From positions 1 through 47,329 of the forward strand of contig CALUXG010000049.1 of NCBI GenBank assembly GCA_944324685.1: a stretch of DNA of 47,329 bases, given 5' to 3'. A program made the position numbers and the translations under genes. How positions within the stretch are numbered: the first letter of the stretch is position 1; each line of letters opens with the position of its first letter. Positions 16,885-25,808 of the stretch are shown here, piece after piece. The stretch comes from an uncultured Elusimicrobiales bacterium. GTDB taxonomy: Bacteria; Elusimicrobiota; Elusimicrobia; Elusimicrobiales; Elusimicrobiaceae. The notes under the pieces were generated by a model. The model worked only from the letters and a program-made list of their open reading frames with translations, ran no database searches and had not been told where the DNA came from.

Positions 16885-17640
16885 ATGACTAAAAGAACTC
16901 CCATCATCGCAGGAAATTGGAAAATGCACAACACGCTGGCGGAGGCCGCCGCATTGGCAGAAGCGCTGAAAAAAGCGGAAAATAAAAACCACGCCGAAGT
17001 GATTGTGGCTCCTTCTTACACCTCTTTAGCCGAAGTGGCGCGCCTGCTTAAAGGCAGCGCCGTCAAAGTGGCAGCCCAAGACGTGCATTGGGAAGACAAA
17101 GGCGCGTTTACCAGCGCCGTATCCCCCGTTCAAGCCAAAGACGCCGGCGCCACCCACACCATTTTGGGCCACAGCGAACGCCGCAGCGTATTTGGAGATA
17201 CGGATGAGATTTTAAACAAAAAAGTAGCCGCCGCTTTGCGCCACGGTTTGACGGTCATTTTTTGCGTAGGCGAAACGCTGCAGCAACGCGAAGCTAACGA
17301 AACTTTAACCGTCATCAACGGCCAATTGGAAAACGGCTTAAAAGGCTTTACCGCCGAACAACTGGCCGGATTAATCATTGCCTATGAACCGGTATGGGCC
17401 ATCGGCACCGGCAAGACCGCCACACCGGATCAAGCGCAGGAAGTACATGCGGCCATCCGCAAATTTTTAGCCGGCAAATACGGACAGGAATTTGCCGACG
17501 CTACGCGCATTCTCTACGGAGGCAGCGTCAAAGACAGCAACGTGGACGAAATCATGGCCCAGCCGGACGTCGACGGCGCGCTGGTGGGCGGGCAGTCCCT
17601 CATCGCTGAAAAATTTACACGCATTATCAATTTTAATTAA
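16885..17640 (+). CDS. tpiA: Triosephosphate isomerase
   Basis: Interconverts dihydroxyacetone phosphate and glyceraldehyde 3-phosphate in glycolysis; cytosolic TIM-barrel homodimer. 251 aa. Catalytic residues are visible: Lys in AGNWKMH (N-terminus), His in ILGHSERR, and Glu in [23 protein letters not shown], with the mobile loop 6. The C-terminal phosphate-binding [13 protein letters not shown] and GALVGGQSL are intact. AGAGGTAAAAG precedes the ATG. It opens the 13-gene run to 33238; deoC follows after ten bases, and both make or use glyceraldehyde 3-phosphate. Confidence 0.97.
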
Positions 17641-17650
17641 GAGTAAAATT

Positions 17651-18295
17651 ATGGATTTGGCTAAATATATAGACCACACCTTGCTTAAACCGCAAGCGGA
17701 CAAAAACGCCGTGAAAACATTATGCGAAGAAGCGCGCAAATACGGTTTTTTCAGCGTTTGCGTAAATCCGTTTTGGGTCTCTTTCTGTGCGCAACAGCTG
17801 CAAGGCAGCGGCGTGAAAGTATGCACGGTCATAGGTTTTCCTTTGGGAGCCAACACGACACAAACCAAGGTGTTTGAAGCGCAAGACGCCTTGCGCTGCG
17901 GCGCTGATGAATTGGACATGGTCATCAATATCGGCGCCTTAAAAAGCGGCGATTACGATACGGTGCTGCACGATATAGCCGCCGTACGCCAAATCGGCAC
18001 GAATTTTACACTCAAGGTCATTCTAGAAACTTCCGTTTTAACGGACGAAGAAAAAATTAAAGCTTGTGAATTGGCAGTAAAAGCCGGAGCGGATTTCGTC
18101 AAAACCTCCACCGGTTTTACCGGAGGGGGCGCTACGGTACAAGACGTACACTTAATGCGTGCCCACACACCCGCCCATGTACAGGTTAAAGCCTCCGGCG
18201 GCATACGGTCGCGCCAAGATTTTGACGCCATGATTTCCGCCGGAGCCACGCGCATCGGCGCTAGCGCAGGCGTAAAAATTATAGAGGGAAAATGA
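17651..18295 (+). CDS. deoC: Deoxyribose-phosphate aldolase
   Basis: Splits 2-deoxyribose 5-phosphate into glyceraldehyde 3-phosphate and acetaldehyde, feeding deoxynucleoside carbon to TpiA. 214 aa. YIDHTLLKP at the N-terminus, [14 protein letters not shown], the catalytic Lys region TLKVILET, and the Schiff-base Lys in [11 protein letters not shown] are all visible. The start at 17651 is the first position giving the conserved N-terminus; the same frame is open further upstream inside tpiA but is not homologous there. The stop overlaps the next start (ATGA, 18292-18295). Confidence 0.95.
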
Positions 18296-21200
18296 TTACT
18301 AAGTGGGATATTATTTCCAATATCCGGCCGACAGATAATGCGCTTGCTTACGCCCTGCTTATTGACGGAACAGAGCAGGACGCGCATATTATTGCCAAAA
18401 AATTGGACGGTTATGTAAAGCAGGCTCAGCCGGCTTTGCCTCCTTACGTCTACCGCTTCCCGCTTCCGGACGATTTGGACGAAGATACGTTGGAAAAAAT
18501 CCGCGTCGCCGTACGGGAAGGCGTCAAACAAGCCAAGAAAATGAACGATTTTATTCCGGACTCTTCATTCTCCGGCATCAACGCAGAGAAAGAAGATAAA
18601 GAATTTCCCTCCTTTGTTTCATTGGATCCGTCCGACAGTTTTTTCCGTGCGGCCCATCCGGCTCCTCCTCCGCCGCCGGCGCCGCACAAACGAATTCACA
18701 AAAAAACTCCTGCAAGAGAACCCGAAGAAGAAATCCCGCAAATTGCCAAAACGCTGGAAGAGATAGACAATGAGGGATACCGCTCTGACCCTTTGACGGA
18801 GCCGGCCCCTTCGGAAAACTCGGGCGAACCATACCGTACCCATGAAGCGGCGATGCCAGCGCCGGACGCCGCTACAGATGGAGAGAGACCGGCGCCGGAA
18901 GATATTTTAACCTCCGTGGAATCGGCAGAAGAATGGCCGGATACTCCTCCTCAAACCGCCCAAGCGAACAGCTCGGACGCGGTTGCCTCTGCGGAAGGCA
19001 TGGAAGATATCCATTTGCAAGTACAAGCCGTTACGGCGCAAGAGTTGCCGGAAGAATTAAGAAATGCCGCAAAAGACGTTTCCATCCCTCACGCCGCCGT
19101 GCCGCCGCAGACACAAGCGGAGTCGGATTTACCGATCAGCGACCGCGATATGCTTATTAAAGACATGGAAGGCACCATGCTGGGGCAGTCTTTAGACGAT
19201 ATTTTTCTGGCCGAAACAAAATATGATATGTTTGTGGATTTGGATCAACTGACCCCAAAAAAAGACCAAAACGCCCCCTCCGCGCAGGCAGATGCCGCAA
19301 AACAGCAGGCTCCGCAGCAGCAAGCCGCCCCTTTATCCCGTCCGCAACCCGACGCTTCAGCCACGGAGGAAGCAGCTTTTAATATTTTTGACCAAAAAAT
19401 TAAAGATCAAACGAATTTTATTGATTTAGACGACATTAAAGGCATTACGGAGCGTATTACGCAAAAAGATTTGGAGTTTGTGAAACACGCCCAAGTATCC
19501 GACTACGCCGAAGCACCAAAACCGGAGCCGTCTGCGGAAACTTATCTGCCGGATCCGGAAAATATAGCCTTGGACAAAACGCGCGCATATATGCCGCTGC
19601 CTTCTTCGTTTGGCCGCGTGGAAGAAGATACGCAGGAAGTCATGGATCCTTTTGAACAGATGATGGCCGCGGCACAGCAGCCCAAACAGGAAACAAAACC
19701 GGCTGAAGCCGCCTCGCCAATATCACCCGAGGGAAAAAACGAACTGATTCCTCCGTCCGCACAAACGGAGCAAGCCGGAGAAGTTTCTGCAGTTGCGGAA
19801 CCTGTGCAAGAAAAACAGGAACTGACGCTGCCGCCGCAACCGGAACAAGAACCGGTGCCGCACCATGAAGACGAAATTTCTCAGGAAACGGAGCCGGTTG
19901 CTCCGCAGCCACCTGAAACGGCAGAGCCTGAGGCCGTCCTAGCGCCGCGCGCCGACGATACAGCTGCGCCGCCGACGCCTATCATATCCGAGCCTCAAAC
20001 AGCTGAGACCTTACCCGCCGAAGAAACCTCCAAGGTTCCTCCGGCCCATTCTGACCAAAACCGGCAGACAGGGACGATTGTTCCGCCCGCCAGACCTATT
20101 ATGGAGAAAGCCATGCCCGAAAATCAAGGGGATAAAAAACCGATTTTACGTATTAAGCGCAAACCCCAACCGGAACAAAATGCCGCGCAGCAGCCGCCAA
20201 AACCTGTTCCGCCTGCGCCGAAGCGGCCGCAGACCCCCCCAATGTCGGGTCAACCGCATCCGGCCGCGCCGCAACAACCGGCACCTCAGGAAGAAAAGCA
20301 TAATACCATTCTGCGCCGCCGACGGCCGGAAAGCACATTTTTAGAAAAAACGCGCACGATTGACCACTCCATTGAATTGCCGTTGTCAGAATTAAAAAAA
20401 CACAACTGGCCTTTGGAAGTACCGCTTATTCCGACGTATACGCTGGAAAACATGACCATCTCCGTCAACCGTTTTGCACACGCGACGGCGATCTCCGTCA
20501 TAGACAACCCGGGCAAACTCTACAATCCTTTGGTGCTTCACGGTTCCAGCGGCACGGGCAAAACCCATTTCTTACACGCCATAGGTTATGCGCTGTCCAA
20601 TAAATATGGCCAAGAAAATATTTTCATTACTAACGGCGTGCGCCTTTCCCGCGGCATACAGCGTTATGTCATGGAAGGCAATATGGATAAATTTGAGAAT
20701 TTTACCAATTCCGTAAAAGCCCTGCTCATTGATGATCTTCATTTGATCGCCATCAATGAACAGAACCGCACGCACCTATCCAAACTGCTTAATGATTTTC
20801 TGAAGCAACAAAAACAAATCGTTATCACTTCCAAATATCCGCCGGAAAGCTTGGCAAAATTGGAAGAATTGTTAAACTTCCGTTTGGATTCCGGTTGGAT
20901 ATCCGACTTAAAGCCCGCCACCGGCTCCGCGCGAATGCGCATTATTCAAAAAATGCTGCATGACAACAATATTGATATTACCGATGACGACGTCAACCGG
21001 TTCTTTGGCCATGCAAATATGTCCATGGGGACCGTCTCGCGGGCCATCCGCCGCGTACGCGTGTTGGAAAAACTGATTTTCCCCAATGAATCGGTGGAAA
21101 AACGTTCCGCCTCCGCTATTTTTGATCAATTATTGGCTACGGAAGGAGAAGACCAGAAAAGTTTAATTGCCCAGAAATATCCCGAAGACGTTACCTCCGC

Positions 21201-21597
21201 CCCTGTGGAAGGCAGAGGAGAGTGGGGCCGTATCGGGTTTTTCTATCCGCAAAACCACTCAAATATGATGAACTGGCTGGTTTTTGCACTGCAGCAGCGC
21301 GCCAAAGAATTGGGAATCAAAGGCGGTCCGGAACTGGCGGTGCGTTCTTCGTATTCCACGGAAAATATCATTTCTTCGGCGTTCAAAATAGCCAACCTGT
21401 GCGACAATAAAAAGCTCAAAGGCGCCGTCATACTGGGACCTGAAGTTACCGCCTGTGATCCGTCGGTCAGAGAAAACTTTTATGATATTCTGACCCACAT
21501 GCTGGAAATCATGCTCATACGCTGCGGTGTAGTCAATTACGAAAACGTCAGCGCGCCCAGCACGTATGTAAAAATATTATCGGAGCTGTTAAGATGA
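18292..21597 (+). CDS. Giant protein with DnaA/Hda-like AAA+ module, long disordered linker and novel C-terminus
   Basis: 1101 aa with four parts. (1) Residues 1-90: a small folded-looking region I do not recognise. (2) About 91-700: Pro/Glu/Ala/Gln-rich, almost certainly disordered, with two similar acidic islands, DMFVDLDQL (312-320) and NFIDLDDI (375-382). (3) About 705-945: a DnaA-type AAA+ ATPase with Walker A GSSGTGKT (751-758), Walker B LLIDDLH (811-817) and NFRLDSGW, matching the DnaA arginine-finger region. (4) About 975-1101: a conserved-looking domain I do not recognise. The DnaA domain IV DNA-binding helix-turn-helix is absent, so it is not a standard replication initiator; an Hda-like or DNA-processing role is possible. 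It overlaps deoC and the next lipoprotein gene, and sits upstream of comM, dprA, topA and xer. Confidence 0.85.
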
Positions 21598-23145: not shown

Positions 23146-24687
23146 ATGTTAGCCAGTGTCCGGACGTGCGCCCTTAAGGGTATAGACGGTTTTGAAGTAA
23201 CGGTAGAGGTGGACATCTCTTCGGGGATGCCCACCTTATCCGTCGTAGGCTTACCGGATGCGGAAGTAAAAGAAAGCAAAGACCGCGTCGTTGCCGCCAT
23301 TCGCAACAGCGGCTTTGATTTTCCCTTAAAACGTATTACCGTCAATCTCAGCCCCGCCGAACTTCGTAAAAGCGGCACCCAGTTTGACCTGCCTATTGCG
23401 GCGGGTATTTTGGCCGCTTCGGGCGCATTGTCGGAGCAAGCGGTTAAAAAATTAGAAAATTTATTGCTCTTGGGAGAATTGGCACTGGACGGTACGCTGC
23501 GCCCGTGTGCCGGCGTTCTGCCTATGCTGATTTCTACTAAGCCAAAAGACTATACCGCCGTTATCGCGCCGGATAATTTATTGGAAGGACGCACTGCCTC
23601 CGTCCCTTTTATCACTCCGCGCACCCTGCGGGATTTGGCAGATTGGCTGGAAGGCAAAAAGGCGGACGAGGCCGTTCAGATAACCTATATTCCTCCCGCG
23701 CAGGAAGAAGCGCCTGTACTGCTGGATTTTTCGGATGTAAAAGGCCAAACCGTAGCCAAACGCGCTTTGGAAATAGCCGCCGCCGGCGGACACAATGTAC
23801 TGATGATTGGCCTGCCGGGGACAGGCAAAAGCATGCTGGCCAAGCGTTTTCCGTATATTTTGCCTCCGCTTTCCGAAGAAGAAGCCTTAGAAATCACCAA
23901 AATTTATTCCGTATGCAATTTGGTCGGCAAAACTGTTCATTTGTTAACCCAAAGACCCTTCAGAGACCCCCATCATACGGTATCGGATGTGGCCCTTATC
24001 GGAGGAGGCACCAATCCCAAACCCGGAGAAGTGTCTTTGGCACACAACGGAGTATTGTTCCTTGATGAATTTGCGGAATTCTCCCGCGCAACGCTGGAAG
24101 TGCTGCGCCAACCTTTGGAAAACGGACAAGTAACCATTTCCCGCGCCAAAGAAACGGTAACGTATCCGGCGCGTTTTACGCTGTTGGCGGCAATGAATCC
24201 CTGCCCTTGCGGACATTTGGGAGATCCGCATAAACCTTGCACCTGCACACCGGTGCAAATCAGCCGTTATCGCTCCAAAATATCCGGCCCGCTTTTGGAC
24301 CGCATAGATTTAACCGTCAACTTAAACCCCGTTGCTTATGGAGACTGGAACAAAAACAGCGAAGGGGAAAGCTCCAGCCAAATCCGTGCGCGCGTTATCG
24401 CTGCCCGCAAACGCCAAGAAATCCGCTTTCAGGGCAGCGGCACCACGGCCAATGCGTTTATGACACAAAAACAAATCAAAGAGTTCTGCCCCCTGCCGCA
24501 GGGAGCCGACGCCATTTTAGAAGCCGCCATGCGCAAATTCGGCCTCAGTGCACGTAGCTTGGACAAAGTGCTTAAAACCGCCCGCACGATTGCGGATTTG
24601 GAAGGCAAAGAACAAATAGAAAACGTCCATCTGATTGAAGTACTGCAATACCGCCCGCTGGACAGAAAAGGGGTCCCTGATTTATGA
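23146..24687 (+). CDS. comM: ComM/YifB-family Mg-chelatase-like AAA+ ATPase
   Basis: 513 aa. An N-terminal Lon-protease-like ChlI fold (about 1-170, with SSGMPTLSVVGLPDAEVKES) is followed by the AAA+ core: Walker A GLPGTGKSMLA, Walker B LFLDEFAEF and AAMNPCPCGHLG. ComM is a hexameric helicase that drives branch migration during natural transformation and is widespread also in non-competent species. It is followed directly by dprA with a four-base overlap, as in many genomes. Full length. It starts one base after the preceding stop. Confidence 0.93.
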   Translation: MLASVRTCALKGIDGFEVTVEVDISSGMPTLSVVGLPDAEVKESKDRVVAAIRNSGFDFPLKRITVNLSPAELRKSGTQFDLPIAAGILAASGALSEQAVKKLENLLLLGELALDGTLRPCAGVLPMLISTKPKDYTAVIAPDNLLEGRTASVPFITPRTLRDLADWLEGKKADEAVQITYIPPAQEEAPVLLDFSDVKGQTVAKRALEIAAAGGHNVLMIGLPGTGKSMLAKRFPYILPPLSEEEALEITKIYSVCNLVGKTVHLLTQRPFRDPHHTVSDVALIGGGTNPKPGEVSLAHNGVLFLDEFAEFSRATLEVLRQPLENGQVTISRAKETVTYPARFTLLAAMNPCPCGHLGDPHKPCTCTPVQISRYRSKISGPLLDRIDLTVNLNPVAYGDWNKNSEGESSSQIRARVIAARKRQEIRFQGSGTTANAFMTQKQIKEFCPLPQGADAILEAAMRKFGLSARSLDKVLKTARTIADLEGKEQIENVHLIEVLQYRPLDRKGVPDL

Positions 24688-25808
24688 GTATTTCCACGCA
24701 GGAACGCTTGGCGCGCATACGCGTAAACGCCTTTTTATATTTTCGGGCGGATTGGCTGACCCGATTAATAGATATTTTCGGCTCGGCGGAAGAAATACTA
24801 AAACAAAATGCCGACACGCTGGTGCGTGAAGCGCAAATGAATCCCGCCACTGCGGCCCATTTTCTGAAAGACGCTTTTTCCGTTAATCCTAAAGAAGAAT
24901 TGGAAAAAACGGAAAAATACGGCGGACGCATTCTGGTACCGGAAGATGCCGAGTATCCGCAAAGTCTGCGCCAACTTAAAGAAGCGCCTATCGCTTTGTA
25001 TGTACTGGGATCCCTACCAAAAGAAAATCAAGCCTGCATAGGTATGGTGGGTACGCGCAAGATTACCCCTTACGGACGCCGTGCGGCCAATACGCTGGCC
25101 GAGGGGCTGGCCCAAGCAGGTGCGGTCATTGTAAGCGGTTTGGCAAGAGGCATAGACAGCGTGTGCCATGCCGCCGCCGTACGCCAACAAAAACCCACTG
25201 TGGCTTTTATCGGTACGGGTATCGGACGCTGCTACCCCGCGGAAAACCGCGATCTGGCGCGCGCCATACTCAAACACGGCGGCGCCATCGTATCGGAACT
25301 TCCGTTCAATAAACCTCCCCATGCTTTTCACTTCCCGCGCCGCAATAGGCTGATAGCCGCCTTGTCTGAAATCGTAGTCGTGGTGGAAGGAGAAGAAAAA
25401 TCGGGAGCTTTGATTACAGCCAAGCTGGCTTTGGAACAAGGCAAAGATGTTCTGGCCGTTCCGGGGCCTATAGACAGCCCGCAAAGCCGCGGCCCCAACC
25501 GGCTCATACAAGACGGAGCGGGTGTTGTTACTTGCGTAAAAGATATAATAGACTATATACCGGAGCCGGAATTGTTTAAGCTGCAAACGCCGCCGGACGC
25601 CAAAACACAGGCAGACGAACGAGAAAAAAAACTGACGGACGTACAAAAACGCGTATGGCAGCATATAGGCTCAGGCCAAGTTACCGCAGATCAGCTTGTG
25701 GAGGAATTAGGTCTGTCCGTGCCGCAGGCGGCAGCCGTACTTTTTGAGCTGGAAGTCAAAGGTTTGTTGACTTCAGAGGCCGGATTATACGGAAAAAGTA
25801 AATTTTAA
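24684..25808 (+). CDS. dprA: DNA-processing protein DprA
   Basis: 374 aa. DprA binds incoming single-stranded DNA and loads RecA in natural transformation. It contains an N-terminal helix-hairpin-helix/SAM-like part, the Rossmann core with GMVGTRKITPYGRRAAN, SGLARGIDSVCHAA, GTGIGRCYPAENRDL, HFPRRNRLIAALSEIVVVVEG and DVLAVPGPIDSPQSRGPNRLI, and a C-terminal winged-helix (DML1-like) domain from about 305. All core motifs are intact. Translationally coupled to comM. Alone it does not prove competence, but a pilin gene (33242) and comM are nearby. Confidence 0.95.
   Translation: MSISTQERLARIRVNAFLYFRADWLTRLIDIFGSAEEILKQNADTLVREAQMNPATAAHFLKDAFSVNPKEELEKTEKYGGRILVPEDAEYPQSLRQLKEAPIALYVLGSLPKENQACIGMVGTRKITPYGRRAANTLAEGLAQAGAVIVSGLARGIDSVCHAAAVRQQKPTVAFIGTGIGRCYPAENRDLARAILKHGGAIVSELPFNKPPHAFHFPRRNRLIAALSEIVVVVEGEEKSGALITAKLALEQGKDVLAVPGPIDSPQSRGPNRLIQDGAGVVTCVKDIIDYIPEPELFKLQTPPDAKTQADEREKKLTDVQKRVWQHIGSGQVTADQLVEELGLSVPQAAAVLFELEVKGLLTSEAGLYGKSKF

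Follow-up and report, generated by a model that had tools for sequence, protein, structure and literature searches.

A giant DnaA-type AAA+ protein with a predicted MID-like C-terminal fold, encoded apart from the canonical dnaA in Elusimicrobiota

Domain IV of the replication initiator DnaA reads DnaA boxes, and the cytosolic pilus-motor regulators FimX and PilZ reportedly act with the assembly ATPase PilB (PMC5595344, PMC8389850). For the roles of the DnaA arginine finger and of domain IV, we follow the description in PMC7561715; for Argonautes, PMC6279821 describes most prokaryotic members as binding the first phosphate of the guide in a pocket of the MID domain. Here, we analyze a stretch of 47,329 nucleotides from an uncultured Elusimicrobiales bacterium (contig CALUXG010000049.1; "the window"), in which a gene at 18292-21597 encodes a giant protein of 1101 amino acids (aa) with a DnaA-type ATPase module. 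We describe the architecture of this protein, the separate dnaA of its genome, its distribution in the phylum Elusimicrobiota, its paralogues, and its clustering with genes for PilT and a histidine kinase, and from these we propose a function. Our proposal, held tentatively and with rather less than even confidence, is that the protein forms the core, dependent on nucleotide, of an as yet undescribed assembly through which a sensory kinase would act on pilus retraction or on the uptake of DNA.

The AAA+ module is of the DnaA domain III type. The original prediction, made from the sequence alone, had proposed an open reading frame (ORF) of 1101 aa with such a module, and this holds: the frame has no internal stop, residues 714-870 match the Pfam family Bac_DnaA (E 3.8e-31), and DnaA chains are the closest relatives by sequence in the Protein Data Bank (PDB). 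Walker A and Walker B had been placed at residues 751-758 and 811-817, and both were found there. The comparison with DnaA and Hda models that had been suggested as a check gave matches to both NCBIfam models, each below its cut-off (150.5 versus 343.9 bits for DnaA and 53.3 versus 194.8 bits for Hda). Hereafter, f1 denotes the window's family, f2 a sister family, and f11-f22 the deep lineages. For the full-length f2 homologue L098 (548 aa), a structure predicted with 43 sequences reached a mean predicted local distance difference test (pLDDT) score of 80.1, in which the N-terminal domain, the AAA+ module, and the C-terminal domain are folded and residues 79-153 have a pLDDT below 50; in the PDB, it is best matched by DnaA domain III (template modeling [TM] scores of 0.80 and 0.83, normalized by target). 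The folded N-terminal part that had been predicted is thus seen in the model of this homologue, as strand-strand-helix-strand-helix. In this domain, M1 and W5 are invariant among 21 aligned sequences, with F at the latter place in the deep member L155; a Pfam search gave no credible match for it, and it is missing from the same frame in two deep forms, L149 and L150.

This protein is not the replication initiator, a role that we rejected because a separate canonical dnaA is present. Besides the present protein, the window's genome encodes another one that matches Bac_DnaA; at 458 aa, it carries domain IV and scores above the cut-off of the DnaA equivalog model (470.7 versus 343.9 bits). As predicted, domain IV (PF08299) is absent from the window protein, and only the 458-aa DnaA of the same genome matches it. 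In 26 genomes that we chose across the phylum, the present protein was found in all 26 and a separate open frame of 451-476 aa with domain IV in 25; the one tested genome without such a frame (G106) is 93% complete. In addition, profile comparisons with Pfam and PDB sequences recognized no known DNA-binding domain in the C-terminal part of the window protein, so that the non-initiator reading of the original prediction stands on both counts. Two deep members (L155:7940-9631 and L147:7418-9184) pass the NCBI DnaA equivalog cut-off (373.3 and 369.7 versus 343.9 bits) despite having no domain IV and, therefore, deep members probably carry the label of DnaA initiator in genome annotation. Genomes G126, G096, G120, G148, and G118 hold frames, mostly of about 320-356 aa and five of them in G126, with weak matches to Bac_DnaA_C (domain IV); these may be proteins of a transposase-like kind that bind DNA through a domain of the DnaA type. 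In a tree of AAA+ segments, the DnaA rows are grouped (support 84/89) and the window's class has long branches; with only 6 of 20 fetched dnaA loci passing the pattern, this tree is too weak to date the duplication.

We surveyed the ATPase residues in 110 AAA+ segments, including that of the window (132 frames matched the C-domain profile, 128 of them also matched the DnaA query, and identical segments were dropped). The Walker A lysine is kept in 110/110 segments, as are both acids of the Walker B DD, so that ATP binding looks conserved across the homologues. The arginine finger is R in all 16 deep homologues, the single f9 homologue, and both f8 homologues, in 16 of the 35 f1 rows (K in 14 and another residue in 5), and in none of the f2 (0/49) or f7 (0/7) rows. 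Sensor II is R in 16/16 deep and 1/1 f9 homologues, and in 0/2 of f8, 0/35 of f1, 5/49 of f2, and 0/7 of f7. The DnaA-like arginine finger that had been predicted is, therefore, present in the window protein as R864, but it is not a constant feature of the family, and the sensor II arginine is gone. For most of the window's class, these losses suggest that catalysis of the DnaA type has eroded. Since both the finger and sensor II are eroded in f1, the window-family protein is probably an ATP-binding switch; since both are intact in the deep homologues, pairing of the AAA+ module with DnaA would be possible there. The series from intact (deep) to arginine-finger-less forms (f2, f7, and part of f1) makes the loss of DnaA-type catalysis directly testable.

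The linker (residues 94-690, 597 residues) is composed of P, E, and Q to 34%, versus 14% in residues 691-1101, and of ILVFMWY to 19% versus 35%. Among 17 window-family proteins, islands near residues 281-318 and 361-380 are conserved and the rest is poorly conserved; in the f2 model, the linker-equivalent segment has a pLDDT below 50. The predicted disordered linker of about 600 residues is accordingly upheld for the window but does not generalize: in the rows of our linker survey, f2 proteins have 536-762 aa with linkers of 70-297 residues, and the deep-lineage forms at 16 loci have 448-672 aa as called. Judged by these lengths, the giant linker is an elaboration in the window's family and not the core of the protein. 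In the f1 genus g12 (L056, L058-L060), homologues reach 1487-1624 aa, with linkers of 1019-1156 residues. A common linear motif in the linkers was considered and dropped as not general, as the 12 proteins that have it, out of 94 and against an expected 2.1, are for the most part closely related; this count left out 18 of 112 proteins in which the start pattern failed or the linker was short.

The original prediction had left the C-terminal domain unrecognized, and by sequence it stays so. Neither window-type nor deep profiles of this domain gave a credible sequence match in Pfam or the PDB, and no Argonaute was matched; Pfam also found no PIWI domain in the window protein. In contrast to these sequence results, the predicted fold is recognizable. 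An AlphaFold model of residues 965-1101, built with 38 sequences, has four beta-alpha units (pLDDT 88.5; predicted TM score 0.82), and when it was compared with known structures by VIA-align, the 50 best matches listed were all Argonaute/PIWI proteins, aligned over MID (Z 14.8-11.7; root-mean-square deviation 2.3-4.0 over 114-127 residues). According to the tool's note, models without a clear match typically have a best Z of 7-8; the tool gives no residue correspondence. The Foldseek results are mixed: a designed cage protein came out on top, and the hits just below it included a C. difficile lipoprotein, Argonautes, and lumazine synthases. We base the MID reading on the VIA-align ranking, and because there is no credible sequence match, we claim from the model a MID-like fold and not a MID domain. 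Among 38 aligned window-type sequences, F984, P986, Y1021, G1049, P1050, and F1063 are invariant, and in the model P986, Y1021, G1049, and P1050 are located at or just past the C-terminal ends of strands 1-3, which would correspond to the usual ligand edge of such folds. Across the phylum (29 sequences), the P986 column alone is invariant and three more columns reach 90%. None of the invariant or near-invariant C-domain residues in the window-type alignment is basic; in the deep lineages, K38 is invariant and K29, H39, and K42 are nearly so, but these residues could not be assigned to a pocket.

The protein is present in its own genome and in 60/60 relatives (37 genus genomes, its own included, and 24 of f2), so that the frame is no chance one. 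A single-sequence search with the C-terminal region found it in 75 of 198 sampled genomes of the phylum. When a C-domain profile was used, 159 of the 247 Elusimicrobiota genomes in the sample matched, no f10 genome among them; the 88 genomes without a match include incomplete ones. A search of genome contigs gave 48 loci, of which 40 are labeled Elusimicrobia, Elusimicrobiales, or Elusimicrobiota, 2 Elusimicrobium, and 6 only "bacterium"; as the queries were f2/f7 and deep C-domains, the family may occur in other phyla. The viral contigs searched yielded no loci. In the open-licence PubMed Central literature, we found no description of this domain architecture, of the gene cluster, of the paralogues as a set, or of either orphan domain. 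While the AAA+ module is of an already known kind, these other features are, within that literature, apparently undescribed. The presence of the family across most of the lineages sampled, its paralogues, and the recurrent gene cluster thus support the earlier suggestion of a possibly undescribed system.

The paralogues lack the AAA+ module. In two f11 loci, the gene order is PilT, two AAA-less proteins with a related C-domain, the ATPase, a kinase, and a receiver protein; the second AAA-less protein of this pair clusters with the ATPase by BLAST, and the N-domain of the first was judged by eye. Several other loci have one AAA-less protein between PilT and the ATPase, and L071, L152, L153, and L160 have none. 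When the C-domains of paralogue and ATPase were compared by hhalign, the probability was 97.5 and the score 68.6, versus 16.2 for the best of 100 column-shuffled controls and 11.1 for the reversed control. Over six profile pairs, the probabilities were 97.5, 96.7, 95.9, 89.9, 69.9, and 2.0, the last of these (A11 versus A9) scoring barely above its best shuffle (18.2 versus 17.3); a first, narrower comparison with the f2 partner C-domain was weak (probability 3.3). An f11 paralogue also matches the ATPase C-domain profile (E 2e-4). On these profile comparisons, the paralogue C-domains are homologous to that of the ATPase. The partner C-domain profile matched in 39/40 f2 genomes and 0/41 f1 genomes, and hence the partner has been lost in the window's family or changed beyond recognition.

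The genes around the ATPase bring in PilT and the kinase. Outside f1 and f2, a PilT cluster (c6) occurs at 13 of 24 loci, upstream on the same strand and separated from the gene by no more than two others, and a GAF-HisKA kinase cluster (c3) at 14 of 24; all six PilT proteins tested pass the pilT_fam cut-off. In rows compared by eye, all C-domain-positive genomes also have a PilT match at E 1e-119 or better. At three annotated f2 loci, a GAF/HisKA/HATPase kinase comes after the gene, and before it stands a long protein, unmatched in Pfam, that has a related C-domain at its end; the kinase is found at an f7 locus as well. The window-family order tpiA-deoC-gene-lipoproteins-comM-dprA-topA-xer is recurrent (Table 1), where comM and dprA are presumptive names that follow the original prediction. 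The overlaps of the gene with deoC and the small lipoprotein gene suggest that the three form one operon; a predicted overlap with the second lipoprotein gene was not found. At the f2 locus L138, the region of the two lipoproteins also holds CsgG-like and GNA1162-like proteins. Around the cluster of L160 are a TIM protein, rpiB, deoC, a transketolase, a Metalloenzyme-family protein, and two nucleoside-phosphorylase-type proteins, the last two families being what we take to be deoB, punA, and deoA. At L147, a bacterial microcompartment (BMC) shell protein (among L147:3184-3495 and L147:1591-3099) stands beside deoC, close to the cluster of pilT and the ATPase, which suggests a deoxyribose microcompartment locus in some lineages.

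Table 1. Coordinates in the window of the gene, the parts of its product, and the neighboring genes
Feature	Positions	Strand	Basis or remark
tpiA	16885..17640	+	Upstream; recurs in several lineages; Pfam TIM for the cluster member in L160
deoC	17651..18295	+	4-base overlap with the gene; start codon by eye; Pfam DeoC for the L160 cluster member
Giant DnaA-type AAA+ protein, P0001, 1101 aa	18292..21597	+	ORF without internal stop
N-terminal domain, about residues 1-93	18292..18570	+	Alignment; fold from f2 homologue model
Pro/Glu/Gln/Ala-rich linker, residues 94-690	18571..20361	+	Composition, alignment
AAA+ module of the DnaA domain III type, about residues 700-950	20389..21141	+	Sequence; f2 model
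Walker A, residues 751-758	20542..20565	+	
Walker B, residues 811-817	20722..20742	+	
Arginine-finger site, R864 in window protein	20881..20883	+	Not conserved in f1, f2, or f7
Sensor II site, G913 in window protein	21028..21030	+	R in the genome's own DnaA and in deep homologues
C-terminal (beta-alpha)4 domain, about residues 976-1101, predicted MID-like fold	21217..21594	+	
Small putative lipoprotein, 147 aa	21594..22037	+	4-base overlap with the end of the gene; unmatched in Pfam at E 0.01
Putative lipoprotein, 368 aa	22038..23144	+	Unmatched in Pfam at E 0.01; loci of f2, f7, and f8 hold relatives
comM (presumed)	23146..24687	+	Recurs downstream in f1, most long f2 loci, some f7 loci
dprA (presumed)	24684..25808	+	Recurs downstream in f1, most long f2 loci, some f7 loci

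We read the protein as a dedicated non-initiator ATPase built from the DnaA AAA+ module, in which domain IV has been lost and a small N-terminal domain and a MID-like C-domain flank the AAA+ module on flexible linkers. In our proposal, such an ATPase would act in the cytoplasm, assembled with its paralogues; ATP binding would set the state of the assembly, and the conserved rim of C-domain strand ends might hold a ligand or a nucleic-acid end. Through this assembly, the sensory kinase could be coupled to type IV pilus retraction or to pilus-driven DNA uptake. For the window's family, no separate partner was found and the linker has grown to hundreds of residues; there, the protein may serve as an ATP-binding switch or scaffold and not as an active oligomeric ATPase.

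Several observations weigh against this proposal. The connection of the protein to pili is one of gene clustering and co-occurrence. The PilT cluster is missing from 11 of the 24 loci outside f1 and f2; in the window's genome, a contig other than that of the window carries the strongest match to pilT, the stretch from tpiA to topA in the window contains no kinase gene, and a profile search of the genome did not find the partner C-domain. Because the cluster also sits among deoxynucleoside genes, PilT and the kinase may be co-located as hitch-hikers in an operon. Strong PilT matches also occur in some f10 genomes that do not have the protein, which implies that pili do not require it. Finally, according to PMC8809381, Endomicrobium keeps the competence genes comEC, comM, and dprA, and a complete pilus-type DNA translocation system occurs in none of the Endomicrobium species studied. 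If f10 corresponds to Endomicrobia, which is a guess, competence genes are kept in a group in which all sampled genomes are negative for the protein.

An alternative, which we consider unlikely, is that the protein handles imported DNA, binding incoming single strands with its MID-like domain on the 5' end and feeding them to ComM/DprA recombination or to deoxynucleoside catabolism. This would fit the comM-dprA pair (with topA) downstream in f1, at most of the f2 loci that are long enough, and at some f7 loci, as well as the catabolic genes around the deep locus L160, the best alignment of the C-domain with Argonaute MID regions, and the single-stranded DNA binding reported for DnaA domain III in PMC7561715. 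However, a MID-like fold alone shows no function, the conserved C-domain residues are not basic in window-type sequences (deep ones do have such basic residues, which could not be assigned to a pocket), clusters of comM and dprA were not found at the f11-f22 loci examined, and the retention of comEC, comM, and dprA in Endomicrobium speaks against it too if f10 is that group. DNA processing, as the original prediction had it, may still apply; outside f1 and f2, the recurrent neighbors are PilT and the histidine kinase, with comM-dprA at only some loci.

Proximity of deoC and other pathway genes in many loci, from the deep lineages to the window, could instead mean that the protein regulates deoxynucleoside catabolism, in a microcompartment or not, sensing a metabolite through its Rossmann-like C-domain together with the GAF kinase, with pilT as a bystander. 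The conserved rim of the C-domain would suit a small ligand. Yet f2 keeps the protein at loci where, among those examined, no deoC is found, and one would hardly expect a metabolic sensor to be built on an AAA+ module of the DnaA type, which makes this explanation improbable. Least credible, and very doubtful on the present evidence, is an Hda-like role in which the protein would regulate DnaA or the timing of replication, pairing with DnaA by way of its AAA+ face and altering the nucleotide state of DnaA: membership in the same AAA+ family and the intact finger and sensor II of 16/16 deep homologues would allow it, but these residues are eroded in the window's family, the neighbors are pilus, kinase, and nucleoside genes, the Hda model scores below its cut-off, and the window protein has no clamp-binding motif by the pattern Q[LM][SDP]L[PF], the last two points having led us to reject an Hda-like protein and leaving the replication control that had been predicted without support. 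A defense system was rejected as well, as PADLOC gave only weak matches in the AAA region.

The protein would represent a member of the DnaA family that gave up replication to serve in some other process, retained in 159 of 247 sampled genomes of the phylum and with a C-domain whose fold is best matched by Argonaute. A further reading, which we regard as distinctly unlikely, is a signaling or DNA-uptake machine of a new kind, in which up to three adjacent proteins with MID-like ends that possibly bind nucleic-acid ends, one of them driven by a DnaA-type motor, are coupled to PilT and a GAF histidine kinase. In that case, the DnaA ATPase would have been recruited from replication to the control of pili or DNA uptake, and the Argonaute MID fold would be used independently of Argonaute in bacteria.

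Compared with known systems, the protein shares with DnaA the AAA+ module by sequence and fold and, in the deep lineages, the arginine finger and sensor II; it differs in the missing domain IV, another N-terminal domain, the MID-like C-domain, and the coexistence of a canonical dnaA. Like Hda, it is a DnaA relative without domain IV, but the 226 positions of the Hda model comprise an AAA+ module and nothing else, whereas the window protein has two added domains and long linkers. Its likeness to the MID domain of Argonaute/PIWI proteins lies in the predicted fold of the C-domain, and the difference in the sequence, where no relationship was detected and the window protein has no PIWI match. With FimX and PilZ, it would share a role beside a pilus ATPase, while differing in that Pfam gave no match of the FimX or PilZ type for the window protein.

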